Shown here: positions 1-64,000 of the stretch, one piece after another
How positions within the stretch are numbered: the stretch's first letter is position 1
Layout of the letters: each line of letters begins with the position of its first letter
Made by a program: the position numbers and the translations under genes
The notes under the pieces: model-generated
What the model was told of the DNA's origin: nothing
What the model saw: the letters and a program-made list of their open reading frames with translations, nothing else
Database searches by the model: none
Assembly: GCA_963855995.1 (NCBI GenBank)
Contig: OY979717.1
Coordinates: forward strand, 51,963,140 to 52,027,139
Source of the DNA: Muricea muricata
Lineage: Eukaryota > Cnidaria > Anthozoa > Malacalcyonacea > Plexauridae
Direction of reading: 5' to 3'
DNA length: 64,000 nucleotides

Positions 1-307
1 AACAATAATTCTAATCTAGTTGCTTTGTTTTTGGGGAAGAAATACGCCTATTCGAAAGAAATGAAAATTTTAGGAACGAAAGATTTAATTTGACGAATTC
101 ATTCTATGATCTACGCTTTGAATTTCTGTGATGTTGTTCAGTGATGTTATAATCGTCGTCCGTTGAATATGATATTGATATAATAATTTTGAAAGCTTGT
201 TTTCAATTTCCAAACGGTTTTCTAAATTTTGACAATGCTAACAATTCTAAGATTGTACCGAGTTATTAAGAAATACACGCCAGTTAGAAAAAGGCGGTCG
301 TTGAAGT
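1..307 (+). other. Partial unit spacer at window edge
   Basis: This is the right part of the standard Glu(CUC)-to-Gly spacer. It starts inside the spacer and runs through the conserved leader into the first Gly gene. I see no gene in it. Confidence 0.85.
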
Positions 308-378
308 GCGTTGGTGGTTTAGTGGTAGAATTCTCGCCTTCCACGCGGGAGACCGGAGGTCGATTCCCCGCCAACGCA
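308..378 (+). tRNA. tRNA-Gly (UCC), T-arm damaged
   Basis: Anticodon loop reads UCC. G52A and U54G break the T-stem and the invariant T-loop start, so the B box is damaged. C13U as in other UCC copies. The proximal T5 terminator is interrupted (attcttatg). Confidence 0.75.
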
Positions 379-502
379 AGCGTAAACAATTTGGAATATT
401 CTTATGCCCTGAATGGCTTCAAATGTTAGATATTTATGAGAATATTTCAATATCCTTCATAACCACATTCTTTGAAACAATCCGATCGGACTGAACAGCT
501 GA

Positions 503-522
503 AACCTCTTTTTTTAGAGGTT
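503..522 (+). terminator. T-rich hairpin between Gly and Glu(UUC)
   Basis: Perfect 7-bp inverted repeat AACCTCT/AGAGGTT around a T6 loop, about 125 bp after the Gly gene and 60 bp before Glu(UUC). Related forms recur in most units (ending agagg, cgagg or ataaatt). The T run could stop Pol III reading through from Gly genes that lack a proximal T5; that role is inferred. Confidence 0.45.
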
Positions 523-583
523 ATAGAATATCCTCTGATATCTGCTCCAAAAATAAAAGGAAAAAAGAAAACGCCTTAGAGAC

Positions 584-655
584 TCCCATGTGGTCTTGTG
601 GTTAGGATCTGGCGTTTTCACCGCCATGGCCCGGGTTCGATTCCCGGCATGGAAA
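584..655 (+). tRNA. tRNA-Glu (UUC), degenerate
   Basis: A14U removes a conserved tertiary contact and G71A gives a C2-A71 mismatch in the acceptor stem. The anticodon and T arms are intact. Confidence 0.8.
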
Positions 656-839
656 ATTCACGGCTATGTCCATTTTTCTTCATCATAAAGTAACCAAAAA
701 ACCCCTCTTTCAAATGCTATTGTACATCATCATTTTTTACAACATTCGAGTTTAACATTTTGTCCACTCCGCCGATTGCATAACTTCAACAATGATATTA
801 ATCTAGTTCTGTTCGGGACATCAAATGTTCGACTTACTG

Positions 840-911
840 TCCCATGTGGTCTAGCGGTTAGGATCTGGCGCTCTCACCGCCATTGCCCGGGTTCGATTCC
901 CGGCATGGGAA
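840..911 (+). tRNA. tRNA-Glu (CUC)
   Basis: All stems pair as in the consensus; the only change is a G to U in the variable loop. T4 follows directly, then T5 further on. Confidence 0.92.
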
Positions 912-1297
912 ATTTTCCACTATGTTCTGCATTTTTCTTCTTCATTAAACAATAAAAGAAAAACGATTCCCTTAGTTTAAATGTCATCAATATTTGTAAA
1001 ATTTAGGGCTAAGATTTTTTTGTCGTCTAGCGCTGGAAATATTGTAACAATAATTCTAATCTAGTTGCTTTGTTTTTGGGGAAGAAATACGCCTATTCGA
1101 AAGAAATGAAAATTTTAGGAACGAAAGATGTAATTTGACGAAATCATTCTATTACCTACGCTTTGAGTTTCTGTGATGTTGTTCAGTGATGTTATAATCG
1201 TCGTCCGTTGTATATGATATTGATATAATAACTTTGAAAGCTTCACTTCAATTTCTAAACGGATTTCTAAATTTTGACAAAAAGCGGTCGTTGAAGT

Positions 1298-1368
1298 GCG
1301 TTGGTGGTTCAGTGGTAGAATTCTCGCCTGCCACGCGGGTGACCGGTGTTCGATTCCCCGCCAACGCA
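1298..1368 (+). tRNA. tRNA-Gly (GCC), short-leader type
   Basis: G52U gives a U52-C62 mismatch in the T-stem, and the variable loop has A to U. The leader lacks about 54 bp found in other units (gacaaaaagcgg junction), a linked feature of this subfamily. Confidence 0.8.
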
Positions 1369-1576
1369 AGCGTGAAGAATTTGAAATATTTTTATGCCCT
1401 GAATGGCTTCAAGTGTTAGATATTTATGAGAATATTTCAATATATTCTTCATAACCACATTCTTTGAAACAATGAGATCGGACTGAACAGCTGAATTCTA
1501 TTTTTTTGATAAATTCTAAAAAAACCTTTGATATCTGCTCCTAAAATAAAGGGAAAATGGAAAATGCCTGAGAAGC

Positions 1577-1648
1577 TCCCATGTGGTCTAGTGGTTAGGA
1601 TCTGGCGTTTTCACCGCCATGGCCCGGGTTCGATTCCCGGCATGAGAA
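1577..1648 (+). tRNA. tRNA-Glu (UUC)
   Basis: One acceptor mismatch (G70A against C3); all else as consensus. Confidence 0.85.
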
Positions 1649-1831
1649 ATTTACGGCTATGTCCATTTTTCTTCATCATAAAGTAACCAAAAAACCCTTC
1701 TTTCCAATGCTATTGTACATCATCATTTTTTACAACATTAGAATTCAACATTTTGTCTAGTCTGCCGATTGCATAAATTCAACAATGATTGTAATCTAGT
1801 TCATCAACAACATCAACTGTTCCGCTGACTG

Positions 1832-1876
1832 TCCCATGTGGTCTAGTGGTTAGGTTCTGGCGCTCTCACCGCCATG
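1832..1876 (+). pseudogene. 3'-truncated tRNA-Glu (CUC)
   Basis: The first 45 nt (acceptor 5' strand, D arm, anticodon arm with CUC) are present and then the sequence jumps at ccatg to a Gly leader. The T arm, 3' acceptor strand, terminator and about 400 bp of spacer are gone. Without a B box it should not be a Pol III gene. Confidence 0.93.
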
Positions 1877-1922
1877 CATATTAAGAGATACGCGCGAGTT
1901 AATAAAATTCGGTCGTTGAAGT

Positions 1923-1993
1923 GCGTTGGTGGTGTAGTGCTAGAATTCTCGCCTGCCACCCGGGAGACCGGGCTTCGATTCCCCGCCAACGCA
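1923..1993 (+). tRNA. tRNA-Gly (GCC), D-arm variant
   Basis: U12G, C13U and G19C in the D arm, C39 opposite C31 in the anticodon stem, and G53C in the T-stem. Several mismatches make it a likely pseudogene. Confidence 0.7.
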
Positions 1994-2205
1994 AGCGTAA
2001 AGAATTTGGAATATTCTTATGCCCTGAATGACTTCACTTGTTAGATATTTATGAGAATATTTCAATATATCCTTCATAACCACATTCTTTGAAACAATCA
2101 GATCGGATTGAACAGCTGAAACCTTTTTTTTAGAGGTTCTAGAGAATCCTTTAAAATCTGCTCCAAAAATAAAAAAAAATAGAAAACGCCTGAGAGACTC
2201 CCATG

Positions 2206-2216
2206 TGGTCTAGTGG
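2206..2216 (+). promoter_or_regulatory. Pol III A box (Glu UUC)
   Basis: tggtctagtgg inside the D arm fits the A-box consensus; shared by nearly all Glu copies. Confidence 0.85.
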
Positions 2217-2248
2217 TTAGGATCTGGCGTTTTCACCGCCATGGCCCG

Positions 2249-2259
2249 GGTTCGATTCC
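2249..2259 (+). promoter_or_regulatory. Pol III B box (Glu UUC)
   Basis: ggttcgattcc inside the T arm matches the B box exactly. Confidence 0.88.
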
Positions 2260-2287
2260 CGGCATGGGAAATTTCTGGCTATGTCCA

Positions 2288-2292
2288 TTTTT
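2288..2292 (+). terminator. Pol III T5 terminator (Glu UUC)
   Basis: T5 18 nt after the gene, conserved in almost all Glu(UUC) copies (ccatttttc). Confidence 0.8.
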
Positions 2293-2454
2293 CTTCATCA
2301 TAAAGTAACCAAAAAACCCCTCTTTCTAATGCTATTGTACATCATAATTTTTTACAACATTCAAGTTTAACATTTTGTCCACTCCGCCGATTGCATAACT
2401 TCAACAATGATTGTAATCTAGTTCTGTTATGGACATCAAATGTTCGACTAACTG

Positions 2455-2526
2455 TCCCATGTGGTCTAGCGGTTAGGATCTGGCGCTCTCACCGCCATGG
2501 CCCGGATTCGATTCCCGGCATGGGAA
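2455..2526 (+). tRNA. tRNA-Glu (CUC)
   Basis: G53A mispairs with C61 at the top of the T-stem and changes the B box; otherwise consensus. Confidence 0.87.
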
Positions 2527-2967
2527 ATTTTTCACTATGTGCTGCATTTTTCTTCTTCATCAAACAATAAAAGGAAAACGATATCCTTAGTTTATATGTC
2601 GTCAAACTTTGTAAAATTTAGAGCTAAGATTTTTTTGTCGTCTAGCGCTGGAAATATTTTAACAATATTTCTAATCTAGTTGCTTTGTTTTTGGTGAAAA
2701 AATATGCCTATTCGAAAGAAATGAAAATTTTAGGAACGAAAGATGTAATTTGACGACATCATTCTATTACATACGCTTTGAGTTTCTGTGATGTTGTTCA
2801 GTGATGTTATAATCGTCGTCCGTTGTATATGATATTGATATAATAACTTTGAAAGCTTCACTTCAATTTCCAAACGGTTTTCTAAATTTTGACAATGCTA
2901 ACAATTCTAAGATTTTACCGACTTATTAAGAAATACACGCGAGTTAGCAAAAGGCGGTCGTTGAAGT

Positions 2968-3037
2968 GCGTTGGTGGTTCAGTGGTAGAACTCTCGCCTG
3001 CCATCCGGGAGACCGGGTTCGATTCCCCGCCAACGCA
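2968..3037 (+). tRNA. tRNA-Gly (GCC), 1-nt T-stem deletion
   Basis: 70 nt: one G of the 5' T-stem strand is missing. U38 and C39 alter the anticodon arm (C31-C39 mismatch). Proximal T run interrupted (aatcttatg). Confidence 0.75.
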
Positions 3038-3244
3038 AGCCTAAACAATTTGGAATAATCTTATGCCCTGAATGGCTTCAAATGTTAGATATTTATGAGA
3101 ATATTTCAATATATCCTTGATAATTACATTCTTTGAAACAATCAGATGGGACTGAACAGTTGAAACCTCTTTTTTTATAAATTCTAGAGAGCCCTTTGAT
3201 ATCTCCTCCAAAAATAAAAGGAAAATAGAAAATGCCTGAGATGC

Positions 3245-3498: not shown

Positions 3499-3543
3499 TC
3501 CCATGTGGTCTAGTGGTTAGGATCTGGCGCTCTCACCGCCATG
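3499..3543 (+). pseudogene. 3'-truncated tRNA-Glu (CUC)
   Basis: Same 45-nt remnant and same fusion point as at 1832, so the two are copies of one deletion event. Confidence 0.93.
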
Positions 3544-3589
3544 CATATTAAGAAATACACGCGAGTTAGCAAAAGGCGGTCGTTGAAGT

Positions 3590-5838: not shown

Positions 5839-5883
5839 TCCCATGTGGTCTAGTGGTTAGGATCTGGCGCTCTCACCGCCATG
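5839..5883 (+). pseudogene. 3'-truncated tRNA-Glu (CUC)
   Basis: 45-nt remnant fused at ccatg to a Gly leader. This unit also lacks Glu(UUC). Confidence 0.93.
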
Positions 5884-7508: not shown

Positions 7509-7553
7509 TCCCATGTGGTCTAGTGGTTAGGATCTGGCGCTCTCACCGCCATG
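7509..7553 (+). pseudogene. 3'-truncated tRNA-Glu (CUC)
   Basis: Fourth copy of the 45-nt remnant and the same junction. Confidence 0.93.
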
Positions 7554-7876: not shown

Positions 7877-7948
7877 TCCCATGTGGTCTAGTGGTTAGGA
7901 TCTGGCGTTTTCACCGCCATGGCCCGGGTTCGATTCCCGGCATGGGAA
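7877..7948 (+). tRNA. tRNA-Glu (UUC)
   Basis: Consensus copy with T5 downstream. Confidence 0.96.
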
Positions 7949-8132: not shown

Positions 8133-8204
8133 TCCCATGTGGTCTAGCGGTTAGGATCTGGCGCTCTCACCGCCATGGCCCGGGTTCGATTCCCGGCATG
8201 GGAA
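8133..8204 (+). tRNA. tRNA-Glu (CUC), reference copy
   Basis: Consensus 72-nt tRNA-Glu that decodes GAG. It differs from the UUC class almost only in the anticodon loop (CUCUCAC in place of UUUUCAC) and in a T/C site of the D loop, so the two classes descend from one gene. Acceptor, D, anticodon and T stems pair fully and the discriminator is A73. A box at 8140-8150, B box at 8183-8193. T5 terminators lie at 8206-8210 and 8225-8229. Third gene of the unit, followed by the long spacer. Confidence 0.97.
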
Positions 8205-8205
8205 A

Positions 8206-9132: not shown

Positions 9133-9186
9133 TCCGATGTGGTCTAGCGGTTAGGATCTGGCGCTCTCACCGCCATGGCCCGGGAA
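9133..9186 (+). pseudogene. tRNA-Glu (CUC) with 18-nt deletion
   Basis: 54 nt: 18 nt from the T loop to the 3' acceptor are lost between two ggg words, leaving cccgggaa. The T arm, B box and acceptor pairing are destroyed. Also C4G. Confidence 0.93.
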
Positions 9187-11226: not shown

Positions 11227-11674
11227 ATTTTTCACTATGTGCTGCATTTTTCTTCTTCATCAAACAATAAAAGGAAAACGATATCCTTAGTTTATATGTC
11301 GTCAAACTTTGTAAAATTTAGAGCTAAGATTTTTCTTTCGTCTAGCGCTGGAAATATTTTAACAATATTTCTAATCTAGTTGCTTTGTTTTTGGGGAAAA
11401 AATATGCCTATTCGAAAGAAATGAAAATTTTAGGAACGAAAGATGTAATTTGACGACATCATTCTATTACCTACGCTTTGAGTTTCTGTGATGTGGTTCA
11501 GTGATCTTATAATCGTCGTCCGTTGTATATGATATTGATATAATAACTTTGAAAGCTTCACTTCAATTTCCAAACGGTTTTCTAAATTTTGACAATGCTA
11601 AAAATTCTAAGATTCTACCGAATTATTAAGAAGTACACGCGAGTTACCAAAAGGCAGTCGTTGAAGTGCGTTGG

Positions 11675-11685
11675 TGGTTCAGTGG
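11675..11685 (+). promoter_or_regulatory. Pol III A box (Gly)
   Basis: tggttcagtgg in the D arm; the UCC subfamily has tggtttagtgg. Confidence 0.85.
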
Positions 11686-11716
11686 TAGAATTCTCGCCTG
11701 CCACGCGGGAGACCGG

Positions 11717-11727
11717 GGTTCGATTCC
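11717..11727 (+). promoter_or_regulatory. Pol III B box (Gly)
   Basis: ggttcgattcc in the T arm, exact consensus. Confidence 0.88.
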
Positions 11728-11758
11728 CCGCCAACGCAAGCGTGAAGAATTTGAACTA

Positions 11759-11763
11759 TTTTT
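11759..11763 (+). terminator. Pol III T5 terminator (Gly)
   Basis: T5 21 nt after the gene (tatttttatg). In roughly a third of Gly copies it is broken to tattcttatg or taatcttatg. Confidence 0.8.
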
Positions 11764-11946
11764 ATGCCCTTAATGGCTTCAAGTGTTAGATATTTATGAG
11801 AATATTTCAATATATTCTTCATAACCACATTCTTTGAAACAATGAGATGGGACTGAACAGCTGAATTCTATTTTTTTGATAAATTCTAGAGAATCCTTTG
11901 ATATCTGCTCCTAAAATAAAGGGAAAATGGAAAATGCCTGAGAAGC

Positions 11947-12018
11947 TCCGATGTGGTCTAGTGGTTAGGATCTGGCGTTTTCACCGGCATAGCCCGGGTT
12001 CGATTCCCGGCATAGGAA
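11947..12018 (+). tRNA. tRNA-Glu (UUC), degenerate
   Basis: C4G with G69A (G4-A69 mismatch) and C41G (G29-G41 mismatch). Two broken stems suggest an inactive copy. Confidence 0.77.
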
Positions 12019-12202
12019 ATTCACGGCTATGTCCATTTTTCTTCATCATAAAGTAACCAAAAAACCCTTCTTTCCAATGCTATTGTACATCATCATTTTT
12101 TACAACATTAGAGTTTAATATTTTGTCCAGTCCGCCGATTCCATAACTTCAACAATGATTGTAATCTAGTTCTGTTATCGACAATAAATGTTCGGCTCAC
12201 TG

Positions 12203-12274
12203 TCCCATGTGGTCTAGCGGTTAGGATCTGGCGCTCTTTCCGCCATGGCCCGGGTTCGATTCCAGGCATGGGAA
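12203..12274 (+). tRNA. tRNA-Glu body with CUU (Lys) anticodon
   Basis: Loop reads CUCUUUC, so C36U and A37U turn the anticodon into CUU, a Lys anticodon, with U37. C63A also breaks the T-stem. Probably inactive; if charged it would be a misreading risk. Confidence 0.8.
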
Positions 12275-12715
12275 ATTTTTCACTATGTGCTGCATTTTTC
12301 TTCTTCATCAAACAATAAAAGGAAAACGATATCCTTAGTTTATATGTCGTCAAACTTTGTAAAATTTAGAGCTAAGATTTTTCTTTCGTCTAGCGCTGGA
12401 AATATTTTAACAATATTTCTAATCTAGTTGCTTTGTTTTTGGGGAAAAAATATGCCTATTCGAAAGAAATGAAAATTTTAGGAACGAAAGATGTAATTTG
12501 ACGACATCATTCTATTACCTACGCTTTGAGTTTCTGTGATGTGGTTCAGTGATCTTATAATCGTCGTCCGTTGTATATGATATTGATATAATAACTTTGA
12601 AAGCTTCACTTCAATTTCCAAACGGTTTTCTAAATTTTGACAATGCTAAAAATTCTAAGATTCTACCGAATTATTAAGAAGTACACGCGAGTTACCAAAA
12701 GGCAGTCGTTGAAGT

Positions 12716-12786
12716 GCGTTGGTGGTTCAGTGGTAGAATTCTCGCCTGCCACGCGGGAGACCGGGGTTCGATTCCCCGCCAACGCA
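12716..12786 (+). tRNA. tRNA-Gly (GCC)
   Basis: Consensus copy inside the exact 1,048-bp duplicate. Confidence 0.96.
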
Positions 12787-12994
12787 AGCGTGAAGAATTT
12801 GAACTATTTTTATGCCCTTAATGGCTTCAAGTGTTAGATATTTATGAGAATATTTCAATATATTCTTCATAACCACATTCTTTGAAACAATGAGATGGGA
12901 CTGAACAGCTGAATTCTATTTTTTTGATAAATTCTAGAGAATCCTTTGATATCTGCTCCTAAAATAAAGGGAAAATGGAAAATGCCTGAGAAGC

Positions 12995-13066
12995 TCCGAT
13001 GTGGTCTAGTGGTTAGGATCTGGCGTTTTCACCGGCATAGCCCGGGTTCGATTCCCGGCATAGGAA
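12995..13066 (+). tRNA. tRNA-Glu (UUC), degenerate
   Basis: Duplicate of 11947 with the same G4-A69 and G29-G41 mismatches. Confidence 0.77.
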
Positions 13067-13250
13067 ATTCACGGCTATGTCCATTTTTCTTCATCATAAA
13101 GTAACCAAAAAACCCTTCTTTCCAATGCTATTGTACATCATCATTTTTTACAACATTAGAGTTTAATATTTTGTCCAGTCCGCCGATTCCATAACTTCAA
13201 CAATGATTGTAATCTAGTTCTGTTATCGACAATAAATGTTCGGCTCACTG

Positions 13251-13322
13251 TCCCATGTGGTCTAGCGGTTAGGATCTGGCGCTCTTTCCGCCATGGCCCG
13301 GGTTCGATTCCAGGCATGGGAA
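13251..13322 (+). tRNA. tRNA-Glu body with CUU (Lys) anticodon
   Basis: Duplicate of 12203: anticodon CUU, U37, C63A. Confidence 0.8.
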
Positions 13323-13763
13323 ATTTTTCACTATGTGCTGCATTTTTCTTCTTCATCAAACAATAAAAGGAAAACGATATCCTTAGTTTATATGTCGTCA
13401 AACTTTGTAAAATTTAGAGCTAAGATTTTTCTTTCGTCTAGCGCTGGAAATATTTTAACAATATTTCTAATCTAGTTGCTTTGTTTTTGGGGAAAAAATA
13501 TGCCTATTCGAAAGAAATGAAAATTTTAGGAACGAAAGATGTAATTTGACGACATCATTCTATTACCTACGCTTTGAGTTTCTGTGATGTTGTTCAGTGA
13601 TCTTATAATCGTCGTCCGTTGTATATGATATTGATATAATAACTTTGAAAGCTTCACTTCAATTTCCAAACGGTTTTTTAAATTTTGACAATGCTAACAA
13701 TTATAAGATTCTACCGAATTATTAAGAAGTACACGCGAGTTAGCAAAAGGCAGTCGTTGAAGT

Positions 13764-22328: not shown

Positions 22329-22382
22329 TCCGATGTGGTCTAGCGGTTAGGATCTGGTGCTCTCACCGCCATGGCGCGGGAA
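22329..22382 (+). pseudogene. tRNA-Glu (CUC) with 18-nt deletion
   Basis: Same 18-nt loss as at 9133, plus C4G, C30U and one C to G in the remaining T-stem strand. Confidence 0.92.
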
Positions 22383-34722: not shown

Positions 34723-34800
34723 GCGTTAATACTTCAGTGGTAGAATTGTCGCCTTCGACACGGGAGACCGTGGTTCGATACCCCCCCCCCCCCCAACGCA
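34723..34800 (+). pseudogene. tRNA-Gly pseudogene with C14 tract
   Basis: 78 nt: the 3' T-stem strand is replaced by a run of 14 C. Acceptor GCGUUAA no longer pairs fully and the anticodon loop reads UCG. No B box remains. Confidence 0.92.
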
Positions 34801-35008
34801 AGCGTAAAGAATTTAGAATATTTTTATGCCCTGAATGACTTCAAATGTTAGATATTTATAAGAATATTTCAATATATCCTTCATAACCACATTCTTTGAA
34901 ACAATCAGATCGGACTGAAAAGCTGAAACTTCTTTTTTTGATAAATTTTAGAGAATCCTTTGATATCTGCTGCAAAAATAAAGGGAAAATGGAAAATGCC
35001 TGAGAGAC

Positions 35009-35080
35009 TCCCATGTGGTCTAGTGGTTAGGATCTGGCGTTTTCACCGCCATGGCCCGGGTTCGATTCCCGGCATGGGAA
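35009..35080 (+). tRNA. tRNA-Glu (UUC)
   Basis: Consensus copy, intact between decayed neighbours. Confidence 0.95.
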
Positions 35081-35264
35081 ATTCACGGCTATGTCCATTT
35101 TTCTTCATCATAAAGTAACCAAAAAACCCCTCTTTCCAATGCTATTGTACATCATCATTTTTTATAACATTCGAGTTTAAAATTTCGTCCACTCCGCCGA
35201 TTGCATAACTTCAACAATGATTGTAATCTAGTTCTGTTATCGACATCAAATGTTCGGCTGACTC

Positions 35265-35336
35265 TCACATGTGGTCTAGTGGTTAGGATCTGGCGCTCTC
35301 ACCGCCATGGCCCCGGTTCGATTCCCGGGATGGGAA
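35265..35336 (+). tRNA. tRNA-Glu (CUC), degenerate
   Basis: C3A, G51C and C66G. Confidence 0.77.
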
Positions 35337-35775
35337 ATTTTCCACTATGTGCTGCATTTTTCTTCTGCATCAAACAATAAAAGAAAAACGATATCCTTAG
35401 TTTATATGTCGTCAAACTTTGTAAAATATAGAGCTAAAATTTTTGTGTCGTCTAGCGCTGAAAATATTTTAACAATATTTCTAATCTAGTTGCTTTTTTT
35501 GGGGGAAAAAATATTCCTGTTCGAAAGAAATGAAAATTTTAAAAACGAAAGATTTAATTTGACGACATCATTCTGTGATCTACGCTTTGAATTTCTGTGA
35601 TGTTGTTCAGTGATTTTATAATCGTCGTCCGTTGTATATGATATTGATATAATAACTTTGAAAGCTTCACTTCAATTTCCAAACGGTTTTCTAAATTTTG
35701 ACAATGCTAACAAGTCTAATATTGTACCGACTTATTAAGAAGTACACGCCAGTTAAAAAAGGCTGTCAATGAAGT

Positions 35776-35845
35776 GCGTTGGTGGTTCAGTGGTAGAATT
35801 CTCGCCTGCCACGCTGAGACCGGGCTTCGATTCCCCGCCAACGGA
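35776..35845 (+). pseudogene. tRNA-Gly (GCC), anticodon stem deletion
   Basis: 70 nt: one base lost and one changed after the anticodon loop (acgctgagac) so the 3' stem strand is broken. G53C, and C72G at the end pair. Confidence 0.82.
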
Positions 35846-36060
35846 AGTGTAAAGAATTTGGAATTTTTTTATGCCCAGAATGACTTCAAATGTTAGATAT
35901 TTATGAGAATATATCAATATATCCTTCATAACCACATCCTTTGAAACAATGAGATCGGACTGAACAGCTGAAACCTCTTTTTCTGATAAATTCTAGAGAA
36001 TCCTTTGATACCTGCTTGGAAAATAAAGGGAAAAGGGAAAATGGAAAATGCCGGAGAAGC

Positions 36061-36132
36061 TCCCATGTGGTCTAGTGTTTAGGATCTGGCGTTTTTACTG
36101 CCATGGCCCGGGTTCGATTCCCGGCATGGGAA
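36061..36132 (+). tRNA. tRNA-Glu body with UUU (Lys) anticodon
   Basis: C36U makes the anticodon UUU (36094-36096). Acceptor and T stems are perfect; the D loop has a G to U and C39U is a wobble. A readable Lys-type anticodon on a Glu body. Confidence 0.85.
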
Positions 36133-36316
36133 ATTCACGGCTATGTCCATTTTTCTTCATCATAAAGTGACCAAAAAACCCCTCTTTCCAATGCTATTGT
36201 ACATCATCATTTTTTACAACATTCGAGTTTAACATTTTGTCCAGTCCACCGATTGCATAACTTCAACAATGATTGTAATCTAGTTCTGTTATCGACATCA
36301 AATGTTCGGCTGACTG

Positions 36317-36388
36317 CCCCATATGGTCTGGTGGTTAGAATCTGGCGCTCTCATCGCCATGGCCCGAGCTCGATTCCTGGCATGGGAA
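36317..36388 (+). tRNA. tRNA-Glu (CUC), degenerate
   Basis: U1C, A14G, G22/G23 region and T-arm changes (cccgagctcg). Confidence 0.7.
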
Positions 36389-36830
36389 ATTTTCCACTAT
36401 GTGTCGCATTTTTCTTCTTCATCAATTAATAAAAGAAAAACGATATCCTTAGTTTATATGTCGTCAAACTTTGTAAAATATAGAGCTAAGATTTTTGTAT
36501 CGTCTAGCGCTGGAAATATTTTAACAATATTTCTAATCTAGTTGCTTAGTTTTTGGTGAAAAAAATATGCCTGTTCGAAAGAAATAAAAATTTTAGGAAC
36601 GAAAGATTTAATTTGACGACATCATGCTATGATCTACGCTTTGAATTTCTGTGATGTTGTTCAGTGATGTTATAATCGTCGTCCGTTGTATATGATATTG
36701 ATATAATAATTTTGAAAGCTTCACTTCAATTTCCAAACGGTTTTCTAAATTTTGACAATGCTAACAATTCTAAGATTGTACCGAATTATTAAGAAGTACA
36801 CGCGAGTTAGCAAAAGGCGGTCGTTGAAGT

Positions 36831-46522: not shown

Positions 46523-46576
46523 TCCCATGTGGTCTAGCGGTTAGGATCTGGCGCTCTCACCGCCATGGCCCGGGAA
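46523..46576 (+). pseudogene. tRNA-Glu (CUC) with 18-nt deletion
   Basis: 54-nt deletion allele (cccgggaa) on an otherwise consensus 5' part. Confidence 0.93.
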
Positions 46577-48603: not shown

Positions 48604-48657
48604 TCCCATGTGGTCTAGCGGTTAGGATCTGGCGCTCTCACCGCCATGGCCCGGGAA
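48604..48657 (+). pseudogene. tRNA-Glu (CUC) with 18-nt deletion
   Basis: Same allele as 46523; the two are separated by one unit, as in an alternating dimer. Confidence 0.93.
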
Positions 48658-50680: not shown

Positions 50681-50734
50681 TCCGATGTGGTCTAGCGGTT
50701 AGGATCTGGCGCTCTCACCGCCATGGCCCGGGAA
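50681..50734 (+). pseudogene. tRNA-Glu (CUC) with 18-nt deletion
   Basis: 54-nt deletion allele combined with C4G, as at 9133. Confidence 0.93.
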
Positions 50735-54568: not shown

Positions 54569-54647
54569 GCGTTAATAGTTCAGTGGTAGAATTGTCGCTT
54601 TCGACACGGGAGACCGTGGTTCGATACCCCCCCCCCCCCCCAACGCA
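54569..54647 (+). pseudogene. tRNA-Gly pseudogene with C15 tract
   Basis: 79 nt: copy of 34723 with 15 rather than 14 C. 14 nt of leader just upstream are missing relative to copy A. Confidence 0.92.
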
Positions 54648-54854
54648 AGCGTAAAGAATTTAGAATATTTTTATGCCCTGAATGACTTCAAATGTTAGAT
54701 ATTTATAAGAATATTTCAATATATCCTTCATAACCACATTCTTTGAAACAATCAGATCGGACTGAAAAGCTGAAACTTTTTTTTTGATAAATTTTAGAGA
54801 ATCCTTTGATATCTGCTGCAAAAATAAAGGGAAAATGGAAAATGCCTGAGAGAC

Positions 54855-54926
54855 TCCCATGTGGTCTAGTGGTTAGGATCTGGCGTTTTCACCGCCATTG
54901 CTCGGGTTCGATTCCCGGCATGGGAA
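54855..54926 (+). tRNA. tRNA-Glu (UUC)
   Basis: C49U wobble and a variable-loop G to U; stems pair. Confidence 0.92.
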
Positions 54927-55110
54927 ATTCATGGCTATGTCCATTTTTCTTCATCATAAAGTAACCAAAAAACCCCTCTTTCCAATGCTATTGTACATCA
55001 TCATTTTTTACAACATTCGAGTTTAAAATTTCGTCCTGTCCGCCGATTGCATAACTTCAACAATGATTGTAATCTAGTTCTGTTATCGACATCAAATGTT
55101 CGGCTGACTC

Positions 55111-55182
55111 TCACATGTGGTCTAGTGGTTAGGATCTGGCGCTCTCACCGCCATGGCCCCGGTTCGATTCCCGGGATGTGAA
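55111..55182 (+). tRNA. tRNA-Glu (CUC), degenerate
   Basis: C3A, G51C, C66G as at 35265, plus G70U. Confidence 0.75.
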
Positions 55183-55621
55183 ATTTTCCACTATGTGCTG
55201 CATTTTTCTTCTGCATCAAACAATAAAAGAAAAACGATATCCTTAGTTTATATGTCGTCAAACTTTGTAAAATATAGAGCTAAAATTTTTGTGTCGTCTA
55301 GCGCTGAAAATATTTTAACAATATTTCTAATCTAGTTGCTTTTTTTGGGGGAAAAAATATTCCTGTTCGAAAGAAATGAAAATTTTAAAAACGAAAGATT
55401 TAATTTGACGACATCATTCTGTGATCTACGCTTTGAATTTCTGTGATGTTGTTCAGTGATTTTATAATCGTCGTCCGTTGTATATGATATTGATATAATA
55501 ACTTTGAAAGCTTCAGTTCAATTTCCAAACGGTTTTCTAAATTTTGACAATGCTAACAAGTCTAATATTGTACCGACTTATTAAGAAGTACACGCCAGTT
55601 AGAAAAGGCTGTCGTTGAAGT

Positions 55622-55691
55622 GCGTTGGTGGTTCAGTGGTAGAATTCTCGCCTGCCACGCTGAGACCGGGCTTCGATTCCCCGCCAACGCA
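55622..55691 (+). pseudogene. tRNA-Gly (GCC), anticodon stem deletion
   Basis: 70-nt allele of 35776 with normal 3' end. Confidence 0.82.
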
Positions 55692-55906
55692 AGTGTAAAG
55701 AATTTGGAATTTTTTTATGCCCTGAATGACTTCAAATGTTAGATATTTATAAGAATATATCAATATATCCTTCATAACCACATCCTTTGAAACAATGAGA
55801 TCGGACTGAACAGCTGAAACCTCTTTTTCTGATAAATTCTAGAGAATCCTTTGATACCTGCTTGGAAAATAAAGGGAAAAGGGAAAATGGAAAATGCCGG
55901 AGAAGC

Positions 55907-55978
55907 TCCCATGTGGTCTAGTGTTTAGGATCTGGCGTTTTTACCGCAATGGCCCGGGTTCGATTCCCGGCATGGGAA
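55907..55978 (+). tRNA. tRNA-Glu body with UUU (Lys) anticodon
   Basis: Partner of 36061: UUU anticodon, perfect acceptor and T stems, but C42A adds a G28-A42 mismatch. Confidence 0.82.
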
Positions 55979-56162
55979 ATTCACGGCTATGTCCATTTTT
56001 CTTCATCATAAAGTGACCAAAAAACCCATCTTTCCAATGCTATTGTACATCATCATTTTTTACAACATTCGAGTTTAACATTTTGTCCAGTCCACCGATT
56101 GCATAACTTCAACAATGATTGTAATCTAGTTCTGTTATCGACATCAAATATTCGGCTGACTG

Positions 56163-56234
56163 CCCCATATGGTCTGGTGGTTAGAATCAGTCGCTCTCAT
56201 CGCCATGGCCCGAGCTCGATTCCCGGCATGGGAA
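56163..56234 (+). tRNA. tRNA-Glu (CUC), degenerate
   Basis: Partner of 36317 with U1C; anticodon stem also altered (cagtcgctc). Confidence 0.68.
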
Positions 56235-56676
56235 ATTTTCCACTATGTGTCGCATTTTTCTTCTTCATCAAACAATAAAAGAAAAACGATATCCTTAGTT
56301 TATATGTCGTCAAACTTTGTAAAATATAGAGCTAAGATTTTTGTATCGTCTAGCGCTGGAAATATTTTAACAATATTTCTAATCTAGTTGCTTAGTTTTT
56401 GGTGAAAAAAATACGCCTGTTCGAAACAAATAAAAATTTTAGGAACGAAAGATTTAATTTGACGACATCATGCTATGATCTACGCTTTGAATTTCTGTGA
56501 TGTTGTTTAGTGATGTTATAATCGTCGTCCGTTGTATATGATATTGATATAATAATTTTGAAAGCTTCACTTCAATTTCCAAACGGTTTTCTAAATTTTG
56601 ACAATGCTAACAATTCTAAGATTGTACCGAATTATTAAGAAGTACACGCGAGTTAGCAAAAGGCGGTCGTTGAAGT

Positions 56677-57723: not shown

Positions 57724-57794
57724 GCGTTGGTGGTTCAGTGGTAGAATTCTCGCCTGCCACGCGGGAGACCGGGGTTCGATTCCCCGCCAACGCA
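57724..57794 (+). tRNA. tRNA-Gly (GCC)
   Basis: Consensus copy, first gene of the superunit. Confidence 0.96.
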
Positions 57795-58002
57795 AGCGTG
57801 AAGAATTTGAAATATTTTTATGCCCTTAATGGCTTCAAGTGTTAGATATTTATGAGAATATTTCAATATATTCTTCATAACCACATTCTTTGAAACAATG
57901 AGATCGGACTGAACAGCTGAATTCTATTTTTTTGATAAATTCTAGAGAATCCTTTGATATCTGCTCCTAAAATAAAGGGAAAATGGAAAATGCCTGAGAA
58001 GC

Positions 58003-58077
58003 TCCCATGTGGTCTAGTGGTTAGGATCTGGCGTTCTCACCGCCATCGCCCGGGTCGTTCGATTCCCGGCATGGGAA
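58003..58077 (+). pseudogene. tRNA-Glu with T-loop insertion, UUC switched to CUC
   Basis: 75-nt allele whose loop reads UUCUCAC: U34C changes UUC to CUC while U32 still marks it as the UUC class. Confidence 0.85.
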
Positions 58078-58260
58078 AGTCACGGTTATGTCCATTTTTC
58101 TTCATCATAAAGTAACCAAAAAACCCTTCTTTCCAATGCTATTGTACATCATCATTTTTTACAACATTAAAATTCAACATTTTGTCCAGTCTGCCGATTG
58201 CATAACTTCAACAATGATTGTAATCTAGTTCATCAACAACATCAACTGTTCCGCTGACTG

Positions 58261-58332
58261 TCCCATGTGGTCTAGTGGTTAGGATCTGGCGCTCTCACCG
58301 CCGTGGCCCGGGTTCGATTCCCGGCATACGAA
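58261..58332 (+). tRNA. tRNA-Glu (CUC), G69A/G70C
   Basis: catacgaa allele with A43G (U27-G43 wobble). Confidence 0.8.
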
Positions 58333-58774
58333 ATTTTCCACTATGTCCTGCATTTTTCATCTTCATGAAACAATAAAAGGAAAACGATATCCTTATTTTA
58401 TATGTCGTCAAACTTTGTAAAATATAGAGCAATGATTTTTGTGTCGTCTAGCGCTGGAAATATTTTAACAATATTTCTAATCTAGTTGCTTAGTTTTTGG
58501 GGAAAAAAATATGCCTATTGGAAAGAAATGAAAATTTTAAAAACGAAAGATTTAATTTGACGACATCATTCTATGATCGACGCTTTGAATTTCTGTGATG
58601 TTGTTCAGTGATTTTATAATCGTCGTCCGTTGTATATGATATTGATATAATAATTTTAAAAGCTTGTTTTGAATTTTCAAACGGTTTTCTAAATTTTGAC
58701 AATGCTAACAATTCTAAGATTTTACCGACTTATTAAGAAATACACGCGAGTTAGCAAAAGGCGGTCGTTGAAGT

Positions 58775-58845
58775 GCGTTGGTGGTTCAGTGGTAGAACTC
58801 TCGCCTGCCACCTGGGAGACCGGGGTTCGATTCCCCGCCAACGCA
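58775..58845 (+). tRNA. tRNA-Gly (GCC)
   Basis: C31-C39 mismatch and G30-U40 wobble; other stems perfect. No proximal T5. Confidence 0.86.
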
Positions 58846-59053
58846 AGCGTAAAAAATTTGGAATATTCTTATGCCCTGAATGGCTTCAAATGTTAGATAT
58901 TTATGAGAATATTTCAATATATCCTTCATAACCACATTCTTTGAAACAATCAGATCGGACTGAACAGGTTAAACCTCTTTTTTTCGAGGATTCTAGAGAA
59001 TCCTTTGATATCTGCTCCAAAAATAAAAGGAAAATAGAAAACGCCTGAGAGAC

Positions 59054-59125
59054 TCCCATGTGGTCTAGTGGTTAGGATCTGGCGTTTTCACCGCCATGGC
59101 CCGGGTTCGATTCCCGGCATGGGAA
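59054..59125 (+). tRNA. tRNA-Glu (UUC)
   Basis: Consensus copy: the only flawless Glu gene of the superunit. Confidence 0.96.
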
Positions 59126-59542
59126 ATTCTCGGCTATGTCCATTTTTCTTCATCATAAAGTAACCAAAAAACCCCTCTTTCCAATGCTATTGTACATCAT
59201 CATCATTTTCTTTCGTCTAGCGCTGGAAATATTTTAACAATATTTCTAATCTAGTTGCTTTGTTTTTGGGGAAAAAATATGCCTATTCGAAAGAAATGAA
59301 AATTTTAGGAACGAAAGATGTAATTTGACGACATCATTCTATTACCTACGCTTTGAGTTTCTGTGATGTTGTTCAGTGATGTTATAATCGTGGTCCGTTG
59401 TATATGATATTGATATAATAACTTTGAAAGCTTCACTTCATTTTCCAAACGGTTTTCTAAATTTTGACAATGCTAACAATTCTAAGATTGTACCGAATTA
59501 TTAAGAAGTACACGCGAGTTAGCAAAAGGCAGTCGTTGAAGT
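59126..59542 (+). other. Spacer with deleted Glu(CUC)
   Basis: Contains the catcatcatcattttc to tttcgtctagcgctgg junction near 59205. No gene. Confidence 0.87.
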
Positions 59543-59613
59543 GCGTTGGTGGTTCAGTGGTAGAATTCTCGCCTGCCACGCGGGAGACCGGGGTTCGATT
59601 CCCCGCCAACGCA
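59543..59613 (+). tRNA. tRNA-Gly (GCC)
   Basis: Consensus copy, second superunit. Confidence 0.96.
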
Positions 59614-59821
59614 AGCGTGAAGAATTTGAAATATTTTTATGCCCTTAATGGCTTCAAGTGTTAGATATTTATGAGAATATTTCAATATATTCTTCATAAC
59701 CACATTCTTTGAAACAATGAGATCGGACTGAACAGCTGAATTCTATTTTTTTGATAAATTCTAGAGAATCCTTTGATATCTGCTCCTAAAATAAAGGGAA
59801 AATGGAAAATGCCTGAGAAGC

Positions 59822-59896
59822 TCCCATGTGGTCTAGTGGTTAGGATCTGGCGTTCTCACCGCCATCGCCCGGGTCGTTCGATTCCCGGCATGGGAA
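59822..59896 (+). pseudogene. tRNA-Glu with T-loop insertion, UUC switched to CUC
   Basis: Second-superunit copy of 58003, same U34C. Confidence 0.85.
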
Positions 59897-60079
59897 AGTC
59901 ACGGTTATGTCCATTTTTCTTCATCATAAAGTAACCAAAAAACCCTTCTTTCCAATGCTATTGTACATCATCATTTTTTACAACATTAAAATTCAACATT
60001 TTGTCCAGTCTGCCGATTGCATAACTTCAACAATGATTGTAATCTAGTTCATCAACAACATCAACTGTTCCGCTGACTG

Positions 60080-60151
60080 TCCCATGTGGTCTAGTGGTTA
60101 GGATCTGGCGCTCTCACCGCCGTGGCCCGGGTTCGATTCCCGGCATACGAA
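60080..60151 (+). tRNA. tRNA-Glu (CUC), G69A/G70C
   Basis: Second-superunit copy of 58261. Confidence 0.8.
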
Positions 60152-60593
60152 ATTTTCCACTATGTCCTGCATTTTTCATCTTCATGAAACAATAAAAGGA
60201 AAACGATATCCTTATTTTATATGTCGTCAAACTTTGTAAAATATAGAGCAATGATTTTTGTGTCGTCTAGCGCTGGAAATATTTTAACAATATTTCTAAT
60301 CTAGTTGCTTAGTTTTTGGGGAAAAAAATATGCCTATTGGAAAGAAATGAAAATTTTAAAAACGAAAGATTTAATTTGACGACATCATTCTATGATCGAC
60401 GCTTTGAATTTCTGTGATGTTGTTCAGTGATTTTATAATCGTCGTCCGTTGTATATGATATTGATATAATAATTTTAAAAGCTTGTTTTGAATTTTCAAA
60501 CGGTTTTCTAAATTTTGACAATGCTAACAATTCTAAGATTTTACCGACTTATTAAGAAATACACGCGAGTTAGCAAAAGGCGGTCGTTGAAGT

Positions 60594-60664
60594 GCGTTGG
60601 TGGTTCAGTGGTAGAACTCTCGCCTGCCACCTGGGAGACCGGGGTTCGATTCCCCGCCAACGCA
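60594..60664 (+). tRNA. tRNA-Gly (GCC)
   Basis: Second-superunit copy of 58775; the trailer has gaaatggtt at 60781 where the others have gaacaggtt. Confidence 0.86.
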
Positions 60665-60872
60665 AGCGTAAAAAATTTGGAATATTCTTATGCCCTGAAT
60701 GGCTTCAAATGTTAGATATTTATGAGAATATTTCAATATATCCTTCATAACCACATTCTTTGAAACAATCAGATCGGACTGAAATGGTTAAACCTCTTTT
60801 TTTCGAGGATTCTAGAGAATCCTTTGATATCTGCTCCAAAAATAAAAGGAAAATAGAAAACGCCTGAGAGAC

Positions 60873-60944
60873 TCCCATGTGGTCTAGTGGTTAGGATCTG
60901 GCGTTTTCACCGCCATGGCCCGGGTTCGATTCCCGGCATGGGAA
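60873..60944 (+). tRNA. tRNA-Glu (UUC)
   Basis: Consensus copy. Confidence 0.96.
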
Positions 60945-61361
60945 ATTCTCGGCTATGTCCATTTTTCTTCATCATAAAGTAACCAAAAAACCCCTCTTTC
61001 CAATGCTATTGTACATCATCATCATTTTCTTTCGTCTAGCGCTGGAAATATTTTAACAATATTTCTAATCTAGTTGCTTTGTTTTTGGGGAAAAAATATG
61101 CCTATTCGAAAGAAATGAAAATTTTAGGAACGAAAGATGTAATTTGACGACATCATTCTATTACCTACGCTTTGAGTTTCTGTGATGTTGTTCAGTGATG
61201 TTATAATCGTGGTCCGTTGTATATGATATTGATATAATAACTTTGAAAGCTTCACTTCATTTTCCAAACGGTTTTCTAAATTTTGACAATGCTAACAATT
61301 CTAAGATTGTACCGAATTATTAAGAAGTACACGCGAGTTAGCAAAAGGCAGTCGTTGAAGT
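60945..61361 (+). other. Spacer with deleted Glu(CUC)
   Basis: Same junction as near 59205, here near 61024. No gene. Confidence 0.87.
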
Positions 61362-61432
61362 GCGTTGGTGGTTCAGTGGTAGAATTCTCGCCTGCCACGC
61401 GGGAGACCGGGGTTCGATTCCCCGCCAACGCA
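61362..61432 (+). tRNA. tRNA-Gly (GCC)
   Basis: Consensus copy, third superunit. Confidence 0.96.
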
Positions 61433-61640
61433 AGCGTGAAGAATTTGAAATATTTTTATGCCCTTAATGGCTTCAAGTGTTAGATATTTATGAGAATATT
61501 TCAATATATTCTTCATAACCACATTCTTTGAAACAATGAGATCGGACTGAACAGCTGAATTCTATTTTTTTGATAAATTCTAGAGAATCCTTTGATATCT
61601 GCTCCTAAAATAAAGGGAAAATGGAAAATGCCTGAGAAGC

Positions 61641-61715
61641 TCCCATGTGGTCTAGTGGTTAGGATCTGGCGTTCTCACCGCCATCGCCCGGGTCGTTCGA
61701 TTCCCGGCATGGGAA
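61641..61715 (+). pseudogene. tRNA-Glu with T-loop insertion, UUC switched to CUC
   Basis: Third-superunit copy of 58003. Confidence 0.85.
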
Positions 61716-61898
61716 AGTCACGGTTATGTCCATTTTTCTTCATCATAAAGTAACCAAAAAACCCTTCTTTCCAATGCTATTGTACATCATCATTTTTTAC
61801 AACATTAAAATTCAACATTTTGTCCAGTCTGCCGATTGCATAACTTCAACAATGATTGTAATCTAGTTCATCAACAACATCAACTGTTCCGCTGACTG

Positions 61899-61970
61899 TC
61901 CCATGTGGTCTAGTGGTTAGGATCTGGCGCTCTCACCGCCGTGGCCCGGGTTCGATTCCCGGCATACGAA
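61899..61970 (+). tRNA. tRNA-Glu (CUC), G69A/G70C
   Basis: Third-superunit copy of 58261. Confidence 0.8.
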
Positions 61971-62412
61971 ATTTTCCACTATGTCCTGCATTTTTCATCT
62001 TCATGAAACAATAAAAGGAAAACGATATCCTTATTTTATATGTCGTCAAACTTTGTAAAATATAGAGCAATGATTTTTGTGTCGTCTAGCGCTGGAAATA
62101 TTTTAACAATATTTCTAATCTAGTTGCTTAGTTTTTGGGGAAAAAAATATGCCTATTGGAAAGAAATGAAAATTTTAAAAACGAAAGATTTAATTTGACG
62201 ACATCATTCTATGATCGACGCTTTGAATTTCTGTGATGTTGTTCAGTGATTTTATAATCGTCGTCCGTTGTATATGATATTGATATAATAATTTTAAAAG
62301 CTTGTTTTGAATTTTCAAACGGTTTTCTAAATTTTGACAATGCTAACAATTCTAAGATTTTACCGACTTATTAAGAAATACACGCGAGTTAGCAAAAGGC
62401 GGTCGTTGAAGT

Positions 62413-62483
62413 GCGTTGGTGGTTCAGTGGTAGAACTCTCGCCTGCCACCTGGGAGACCGGGGTTCGATTCCCCGCCAACGCA
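62413..62483 (+). tRNA. tRNA-Gly (GCC)
   Basis: Third-superunit copy of 58775. Confidence 0.86.
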
Positions 62484-62691
62484 AGCGTAAAAAATTTGGA
62501 ATATTCTTATGCCCTGAATGGCTTCAAATGTTAGATATTTATGAGAATATTTCAATATATCCTTCATAACCACATTCTTTGAAACAATCAGATCGGACTG
62601 AACAGGTTAAACCTCTTTTTTTCGAGGATTCTAGAGAATCCTTTGATATCTGCTCCAAAAATAAAAGGAAAATAGAAAACGCCTGAGAGAC

Positions 62692-62763
62692 TCCCATGTG
62701 GTCTAGTGGTTAGGATCTGGCGTTTTCACCGCCATGGCCCGGGTTCGATTCCCGGCATGGGAA
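62692..62763 (+). tRNA. tRNA-Glu (UUC)
   Basis: Consensus copy. Confidence 0.96.
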
Positions 62764-63180
62764 ATTCTCGGCTATGTCCATTTTTCTTCATCATAAAGTA
62801 ACCAAAAAACCCCTCTTTCCAATGCTATTGTACATCATCATCATTTTCTTTCGTCTAGCGCTGGAAATATTTTAACAATATTTCTAATCTAGTTGCTTTG
62901 TTTTTGGGGAAAAAATATGCCTATTCGAAAGAAATGAAAATTTTAGGAACGAAAGATGTAATTTGACGACATCATTCTATTACCTACGCTTTGAGTTTCT
63001 TTGATGTTGTTCAGTGATCTTATAATCGTCGTCCGTTGTATATGAAATTGATATAATAACTTTGAAAGCTTCACTTCAATTTCCAAACGGTTTTCTGAAT
63101 TTTGACAATGCTAACAATTCTAAGATTGTACCGAATTATTAAGAAGTACACGCGAGTTACCAAAAAGCGGTCGTTGAAGT
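62764..63180 (+). other. Spacer with deleted Glu(CUC)
   Basis: Junction near 62843 as in the previous superunits; beyond it the leader returns to the single-unit type. No gene. Confidence 0.87.
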
Positions 63181-63251
63181 GCGTTGGTGGTTCAGTGGAA
63201 GAATTCTCGCCTGCCACGCGGGAGACCGGGGTTCGATTCCCCGCCAACGCA
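63181..63251 (+). tRNA. tRNA-Gly (GCC)
   Basis: U20A in the D loop; all stems pair. Confidence 0.94.
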
Positions 63252-63459
63252 AGCGTGAAGAATTTGAAATATTTTTATGCCCTGAATGGCTTCAAGTGTT
63301 AGATATTTACGAGAATATTTCAATATATTCTTCATAACCACATTCTTTGAAACAATGAGATGGGACTGAAAAGCTGAATTCTATTTTTTTGATAAATTCT
63401 AGAGAATCCTTTGATATCTGCTCCTAAAATAAAGGGAAAATGGAAAAGGCCTGAGGAAC

Positions 63460-63531
63460 TCCCATGTGGTCTAGTGGTTAGGATCTGGCGTTTTCACCGC
63501 CATAGCCCGGGTTTGATTCCCGGCGTAGGAA
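63460..63531 (+). tRNA. tRNA-Glu (UUC), degenerate
   Basis: C56U in the T loop, A67G wobble and G69A mismatch. Confidence 0.8.
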
Positions 63532-63715
63532 ATTCACGGCTATGTCCATTTTTCTTCATCATAAAGTAACAAAAAAACCCTTCTTTCCAATGCTATTGTA
63601 CATCATCATTTTTTACAACATTAGAGTTTAATATTTTTTCCAGTCCGCCGATTCCATAACTTCAACAATGACTGTAATCTAGTTCTGTTATCGACGTCAA
63701 ATGTTCGGCTCACTG

Positions 63716-63787
63716 TCCGATGTGGTCTAGCGGTTAGGATCTGGCGCTCTCACCGCCATGGCCAGGGTTCGATTCCCGGCATGGGAA
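63716..63787 (+). tRNA. tRNA-Glu (CUC), C4G subfamily
   Basis: G4-G69 mismatch and C50A in the T-stem. Confidence 0.83.
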
Positions 63788-64000
63788 ATTTTTCACTATG
63801 TGCTGCATTTTCCTTCTTCATCAAACAATAAAAGGAAAACGATATCCTTAGTTTATATTACGTCAAACTTTGTAAAATTTAGAGCTAAGATTTTTTTGTC
63901 GTCTAGCGCTGGAAATATTTTAACAATATTTCTAATCTAGTTTCTTTGTTTTTGGGGAAAAAATATGCCTATTCGAAAGAAATGAAAATTTTAGGAACGA
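63788..64000 (+). other. Partial unit spacer at window edge
   Basis: Start of the standard long spacer with the Glu(CUC) T5 and the ttcgaaagaaatgaaaattt block; the array evidently continues past the window. Confidence 0.85.

Follow-up and report, generated by a model that had tools for sequence, protein, structure and literature searches.

The window considered here, the whole stretch of 64,000 nucleotides of Muricea muricata (Cnidaria) DNA that was analysed, lies inside a tandem array of transfer RNA (tRNA) loci in which a unit of one tRNA-Gly and two tRNA-Glu copies is repeated head to tail. The best reading of this Gly-Glu-Glu array is that of an rDNA-like (ribosomal DNA-like) and satellite-like tRNA array, maintained by unequal exchange under weak selection, and it belongs to a set of several giant small-RNA gene arrays in the genome. 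Judged from its sequence, it is probably a functional tRNA supply locus with heavy redundancy, whose organisation and homogenisation resemble those of rDNA.

By BLAST, with three typical array copies as queries, 187 non-overlapping tRNA loci were found in the window, throughout on the plus strand: 64 Gly copies, 66 of the Glu-TTC type and 57 of the Glu-CTC type. An earlier note, made from the letters of this DNA, had proposed about 187 loci in about 65 head-to-tail Gly-Glu-Glu units, all on one strand, and the figures agree well with it, the number of loci being exactly 187, the 64 Gly starts defining 63 complete Gly-to-Gly units, and the 168 tRNA genes called by ARAGORN being every one on the plus strand. 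Moreover, cmscan returned 164 matches at or above the gathering score, at least 150 of which, among the matches listed, are to RF00005 on the plus strand. The order in the typical unit is Gly, Glu-TTC, Glu-CTC and then a spacer of about 441 bp. The commonest periods are 1,047-1,048 bp and the majority of the units measure 1,028-1,055 bp, with length variants of 266, 622-625, 768, 899-901, 990-992, 1,290 and 1,477 bp. Short units arise mainly through the loss of part or all of Glu-CTC together with pieces of the spacer; all four of the 45-nt Glu-CTC stubs (Table 1) lie 46 bases ahead of a Gly copy, and reading of two junctions, at 1.88 and 3.54 kb, showed them to be alike in kind.

The guanine-plus-cytosine (GC) content of the window, from base counts, is 37.5%, and inverted copies of 16-mers are absent within it. 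Complex short tandem repeats (STRs) were not found in the window by Tandem Repeats Finder (TRF), whose four rows for the 64 kb comprise three of 41-48 bp and a local repeat of a 255-bp stretch; the array itself is missed because the longest TRF period is 500. Apart from the tRNA loci, no gene was found in the window, as the note had also stated, the longest stop-to-stop frame across 241 kb of the array being 124 aa, a measure that leaves short exons possible. Exact searches of viral and prokaryote collections with tRNA and spacer words from the window gave 0 matches, as expected for a probably animal sequence.

The array sits on contig C2, at 52 Mb of its 71.7 Mb, in a genome that comprises 74 contigs and 453,007,491 bases. 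Its leftmost tRNA is a Glu copy at C2:51,845,650, and no tRNA loci were found in four 10-kb stretches to the left of this position. Contiguous reading from there to 52,087,139 (241 kb) gave 745 tRNA loci by BLAST, on the plus strand throughout. Further to the right, 17 of 18 samples from 52,087,140 to 52,400,939 fell inside the array, and the right edge is placed near 52.40 Mb, all 4 samples from 52,404,140-52,419,639 lying outside it, together with those from 52,425 kb onward. Both ends of the window are therefore well within the array, in agreement with the note. The length of the array is about 555 kb (241 kb read, 314 kb by samples), that is 0.12% of 453 Mb, and extrapolation from 745 loci per 241.5 kb at 17/18 occupancy gives about 1,660 tRNA loci. 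The genome was searched with an exact 38-base spacer word: 257 forward and 0 reverse matches were counted, 158 of them inside the 241 kb read, and the 100 matches listed are all on C2, at 51.79-51.98 Mb. An outlying piece of the unit lies at C2:51,793,900-51,795,899 (51.794 Mb), about 50 kb left of the first array tRNA; its second-position Glu copy carries a D-arm deletion and measures just 65 nt.

Some sequence unlike the unit was also seen in and around the array. The left flank (C2:51,803,140-51,845,649) carries a transposase-like (TNP-like RNase H) frame, a PIF1-like helicase frame and large inverted repeats. A 943-base gap from C2:51,852,913, inside the array, contains an insert near 51,853,250-51,853,700 that does not resemble the unit, and the non-array sequence at C2:52,375,140-52,375,939, which also lies within the array and contains two frames, of 120 and 107 aa, is perhaps a mobile-element insertion.

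A second giant array is present on contig C1, on the minus strand, with a 346-bp unit containing one tRNA-Lys(TTT). In the genome-wide tRNA search 63 of 55,957 first-look candidates were scored; 62 of these are on C1 at 68.26-68.75 Mb, minus strand, and one is on C12. Eight of ten samples, within C1:68,255,000-68,752,399, were inside the array and two, at 68,245 and 68,760 kb, outside, so that by samples the array measures at least 497 kb and, if unbroken, would hold about 1,440 copies by extrapolation. Four stretches, 9,400 bases in all, gave 27 Rfam matches, and an exact 32-base Lys word occurs 405 times genome-wide, on the minus strand throughout, the 100 matches listed being all on C1. Furthermore, an 858-bp repeat on C1:35,142,700-35,143,999 contains a U5 small nuclear RNA (snRNA) match of 88.5 bits (343-465, minus) as well as a tRNA-like stretch (about 133-210, plus) whose B box is perfect and which ARAGORN leaves uncalled. 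Two adjacent partial copies of it were read, 96.4% alike across 281 bases and with one U5 match, and the B-box cluster that leads to it spans C1:35.02 to at least 35.15 Mb. Several classes of non-coding RNA (ncRNA) are thus found in tandem in one genome, namely tRNA-Gly/Glu, tRNA-Lys and, from two partial copies, U5. The B-box pattern GGTTCGANTCC occurs 9,672 times genome-wide, compared with 264 times for the reversed control. Extrapolated from counts of 518 (241 kb) and 16 (9.4 kb), the share of the two tRNA arrays is roughly 2,000, several-fold below the genome-wide count, which leads one to expect further arrays or tRNA-like repeats dispersed in the genome.

For the diversity and the distances between units, the calculation was restricted to the 193 complete units measuring 980-1,100 bp, so that 57 of the 250 were left out. 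The mean divergence among the 193 units is 7.3%. The mean distance to the nearest unit is 0.3-0.9% in two blocks, at 51.885-51.965 and 52.005-52.065 Mb, which are freshly homogenised, and 2-3% in the remaining bins, save the last one, which holds a single unit. In the window, the unit at 12716-13763 diverges by 0.48% from the preceding one (11668-12715). Exact-match runs in the 241 kb read revealed higher-order repeats of 3,147, 1,819 and 1,614 bp; the longest stretch repeated exactly measures 5,256 bp, with a shift of 3,147 between its copies, and exact repeats of at least 1 kb cover 21% of this sequence. Among the three 1,819-bp dimers of the window (Table 1), the 1,051-bp halves show no substitution and the 768-bp halves are 0.3-1.4% apart. 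The organisation is therefore of the satellite type, with head-to-tail units, higher-order repeats and locally homogenised blocks. Such a repeat pattern, with near-identical blocks, is what unequal exchange and conversion produce, and one that an assembler could not easily create.

The state of the single copies was judged by a strict test based on a hand-written cloverleaf, which a copy passes if its stems are free of mismatches, its anticodon is the expected one and its B box is canonical. The test was passed by 53 of the 187 window loci (14 of 64 Gly, 32 of 66 Glu-TTC, 7 of 57 Glu-CTC) and by 214 of the 745 loci in the 241 kb read (about 29%); it is somewhat harsh on Gly, in that it rejects 12 window copies with TCC, itself a Gly anticodon. 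Ten window copies are truncated and 13 contain an insertion or deletion (indel). Altered anticodons in the 241 kb are CTT in the Glu-CTC type (12 copies), TTT (8) and ATC (6) in the Glu-TTC type, and TCC in Gly (29). Some window copies are named Lys, Asp or Cys by ARAGORN; given that their bodies match Glu or Gly by BLAST, decay or a shift is the better reading of these copies. The term "loci" is apt for the array copies and "genes" is not, many of them being decayed. Among copies with at most one stem mismatch, a run of at least four T within 30 bases downstream is present in all 111 Glu-CTC copies, in 176 of the 177 Glu-TTC copies and in 101 of the 145 Gly copies.

The diversity of the tRNA columns was compared with that of composition-matched spacer columns, which were resampled; the columns were taken as independent, which flatters the figures, and the fraction of resamplings as low as the tRNA value is given in brackets. 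The Glu-TTC bodies have a diversity of 0.048 vs 0.091 in the matched spacer (0.0004) and the Glu-CTC bodies of 0.064 vs 0.093 (0.026). This is moderate evidence that the Glu genes matter, and from variation there is little sign that the Gly genes do. For the stems, truncated and indel copies were excluded and the expected spectrum was taken from the spacer of the same 193 units. Changes on both sides of a stem pair kept or broke the pairing in 10 and 1 Gly copies, 9 and 1 Glu-CTC copies and 6 and 7 Glu-TTC copies; these figures count copies, so that inherited changes enter many times. The double changes, being mostly kept in Gly and Glu-CTC, speak for a tRNA supply. Counted per copy, single-side changes in Gly keep the pairing in 44% of cases vs 24% expected, an excess that is tentatively ascribed to common inherited variants.

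From a mechanistic perspective, the array would grow and be homogenised via unequal crossing-over and conversion, as in rDNA or satellite DNA. The intact copies would be transcribed by RNA polymerase III (Pol III) from the internal A and B boxes, and their transcripts would be processed and charged, the array thereby acting as a bulk source of tRNA-Glu and tRNA-Gly. Since the redundant copies number in the hundreds, each of them would be under weak selection, and decayed ones would be carried along.

Several results weigh against a working supply locus. The Gly bodies are as variable as the matched spacer (0.091 vs 0.093; 0.47 of resamplings as low), and stem positions are more variable than loop positions in Gly, Glu-TTC and Glu-CTC alike. 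When each distinct allele is counted once, single-side stem changes keep the pairing no more often than the spacer spectrum predicts (Gly 26% vs 24.5%, Glu-TTC 22% vs 28%, Glu-CTC 18% vs 25%). In addition, the length of the array rests on one assembly, 314 kb of it being sampled only. Selection of stem changes for the preservation of pairing was accordingly rejected as a general feature, given the lack of excess among the distinct single-side alleles. The main rival, which we consider unlikely, is a satellite DNA that carries tRNA sequences, owes its amplification to selfish or structural causes and yields hardly any tRNA or none, the supply coming from genes elsewhere. Such a satellite would agree with Gly bodies that vary like the spacer and with single-side alleles that do not preserve pairs, with the failure of 134 of 187 window copies and 531 of 745 copies in the strict test, with higher-order repeats and homogenised blocks, which are satellite behaviour, and with the transposon-like sequence in the left flank. 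However, Glu-TTC bodies about half as diverse as the matched spacer, a T-run kept downstream of almost every Glu copy that has no more than one stem mismatch, and double stem changes that mostly preserve the pair in Gly and Glu-CTC are difficult to reconcile with it, and tRNA-Lys and U5 are also in tandem in this genome.

A short real array inflated by the assembler is a very improbable explanation. It could draw on the exact repeats, namely the 5,256 bp at a shift of 3,147 and the three 1,051-bp units without substitution, and the copy number of exactly repeated blocks could indeed be wrong in the assembly. Against it stand the mean divergence of the 193 units and the small share of exact repeats of at least 3 kb, which cover just 3.5% of the 241 kb; moreover, the left edge is read base by base, the right edge is bracketed, other sequence occurs at 52.375 Mb, and a second, different array, that of tRNA-Lys, shows the same behaviour. 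The concern for an assembly expansion raised in the earlier note is thus lowered, and not removed, by the diversity of the units and by a longest exact repeat of 5,256 bp in 241 kb.

It is equally improbable that the main role of the array is chromosomal, that is, a boundary, a replication-pause site or a centromere-like block that would act via TFIIIC and Pol III binding and not via tRNA output. Barrier and other roles of tRNA-encoding DNA (tDNA) have been reviewed (PMC4041453). The pooled B boxes (0.052 vs 0.088 in matched spacer; 0.044 of resamplings as low) and the Glu-TTC A box (0.022 vs 0.088; 0.008) are less variable than the spacer, and the C1 array lies near the middle of its contig (68.3-68.75 of 124.2 Mb). 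However, the pooled A boxes vary like the spacer (0.083 vs 0.090; 0.39) and the remainder of the tRNA bodies is reduced too (0.068 vs 0.093; 0.0055), so that the boxes are not distinct, and the C2 array, at 52 of 71.7 Mb, does not share the position of the C1 array. A conservation of the A and B boxes alone, as for a binding-site role, was for this reason discarded. Finally, a local cluster of a tRNA-derived short interspersed nuclear element (SINE) family, which very many tRNA-derived copies and B boxes well above the control, scattered among the C1 places listed, might recall, is extremely unlikely, given head-to-tail units that each hold three tRNAs in a constant order and at constant spacing, a spacer word on a single strand with its listed matches on C2, and, in place of dispersal in both orientations, 745 of 745 loci on the plus strand and no inverted 16-mer in the window.

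Among vertebrates, Xenopus laevis has a long tandem multi-tRNA array, the 3.18-kb tDNA repeat, with a longer unit and more tRNA species than the array described here. In the human variable number tandem repeat (VNTR) of tRNA genes on chromosome 1q23.3, tRNA-Glu and tRNA-Gly occur within a tandem unit, as they do here; that unit is GC-rich and 7.3 kb long, is present in 9-43 units per allele, and also contains Leu and Asp and a CTCF site (PMC4041453). Unlike it, the unit of the present array is about 1,048 bp long, with the GC content of 37.5% given above, so that it is neither of 7.3 kb nor GC-rich. In Entamoeba histolytica almost all tRNA genes are found in 25 array units that make up more than 10% of the genome and are mostly uniform (PMC2652664). 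The tandem units, there with up to five tRNA genes, are a shared feature, and their homogenisation has been discussed as concerted evolution (PMC2652664); unlike those of Entamoeba, the array here takes a very small share of its genome and its units are on average 7.3% apart. Complex STRs in the spacers are described for E. histolytica and E. dispar only, the other Entamoeba species studied being without them (PMC2652664). The absence of spacer STRs, which the earlier note had taken as a difference from Entamoeba, does not therefore separate the two, and the note missed the closest precedent.

This precedent is represented by the RNA tandem arrays of Hydractinia and Nematostella (PMC11067881). 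According to that source, Hydractinia has roughly evenly spaced tandem arrays of ncRNAs with tens or hundreds of copies, covering tRNAs for all 20 amino acids, rRNA, U1, U2, U6 and U3, Nematostella has arrays of 5S, tRNA and U5, and none were found in the other cnidarian genomes compared there. As in the Hydractinia arrays, the tandem copies are roughly even and the spacers, of several hundred bases or more, are highly similar (PMC11067881); this roughly even spacing with similar spacers is found in both the Gly-Glu-Glu unit and the 346-bp Lys unit. The presence of several RNA classes in tandem per genome, here tRNA-Gly/Glu, tRNA-Lys and U5, is a further likeness to Hydractinia; unlike the tens or hundreds of copies reported there (PMC11067881), the two tRNA arrays hold, by extrapolation, about 1,660 and about 1,440 loci. 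In Nematostella more than 17,000 tDNAs are known, 89% of which are clustered, and clusters of fifty and more occur in this genus and in teleosts (PMC2888827). The clusters of Nematostella vectensis are similar to the present array in their mostly heterogeneous neighbours and their exceptionally large size; they are defined by spacing within 1 kb, and a contiguous array of the present size is not described in the available part of that source (PMC2888827). A deep-sea anemone has 14,806 tRNA genes (PMC10598428), and the tRNA clusters of Drosophila are covered elsewhere (PMC7919458). The Gly-Glu-Glu array looks like an unusually large member of a known cnidarian kind of RNA array.

The positions of the features in the window are collected in Table 1. 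Two side observations concern the mitochondrial gene COX1. It is found on contig C74, which is 19,292 bases long, with no TGA among the 300 codons read, and its best PDB match is 7jro, which we take to be a plant chain, the next-ranked chains being presumably mammalian; this ranking would suit a slowly evolving mitochondrial genome. As a lead, the protein may be of anthozoan, perhaps octocoral, character. A second COX1 match, at C1:38,414,782-38,416,095, contains one in-frame TAA and is probably a nuclear copy of mitochondrial DNA.

Table 1. Features of the 64-kb window, in window positions unless preceded by a contig name.
Feature	Position	Strand	Basis
Interior of the Gly-Glu-Glu array	1..64000 (C2:51,963,140-52,027,139)	+	187 loci, place in genome
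Unit of the commonest kind (1,048 bp), made up of Gly, a Glu-TTC type, a Glu-CTC type whose anticodon is CTT, and the long spacer	11668..12715	+	Unit table, ARAGORN anticodon
tRNA-Gly(GCC), intact	11668..11738	+	66.1 bits RF00005; matches the reference copy exactly
tRNA-Glu(TTC), intact	7877..7948	+	63.0 bits RF00005; matches the reference copy exactly
tRNA-Glu(CTC), intact	8133..8204	+	60.4 bits RF00005; matches the reference copy exactly
Glu-CTC stub, 45 nt, joined to Gly-upstream sequence	1832..1876	+	BLAST
Further 45-nt Glu-CTC stubs	3499-3543, 5839-5883, 7509-7553	+	BLAST
Glu-CTC type ending at 52 nt	9133..9184, 22329-22380, 46523-46574, 48604-48655, 50681-50732	+	BLAST
Two-unit block, second copy at 54569-56676, divergence 1.2-1.4%	34723..36830	+	Unit table
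Higher-order repeat: three 1,819-bp dimers (1,051 + 768 bp)	57724..63180	+	Unit table

The organisation of RNA genes in arrays known from Hydractinia and Nematostella is here extended to a further genome and to a larger scale. It is possible, although doubtful, that the small stable RNA genes of this lineage have moved wholesale into half-megabase, rDNA-like mega-arrays homogenised by exchange, in which the supply would be set by the number of active units and not by the promoters of single genes, and selection would act on whole arrays with the single copies decaying almost freely. The excess copies may also have second roles, for which a chromatin boundary, replication pausing and a large tRNA dose in some cell type are candidates. 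The number of tRNA genes is often taken as a measure of tRNA supply; here one locus would add about 1,660 loci by extrapolation, of which some three in ten may be strictly intact, with little sign of constraint in one of the three genes, so that copy counts alone mislead. Furthermore, the internal variation, the single direction and the homogenised blocks make the turnover of a Pol III gene array directly measurable, and array-specific variants would allow tRNA sequencing to tell the active units apart.

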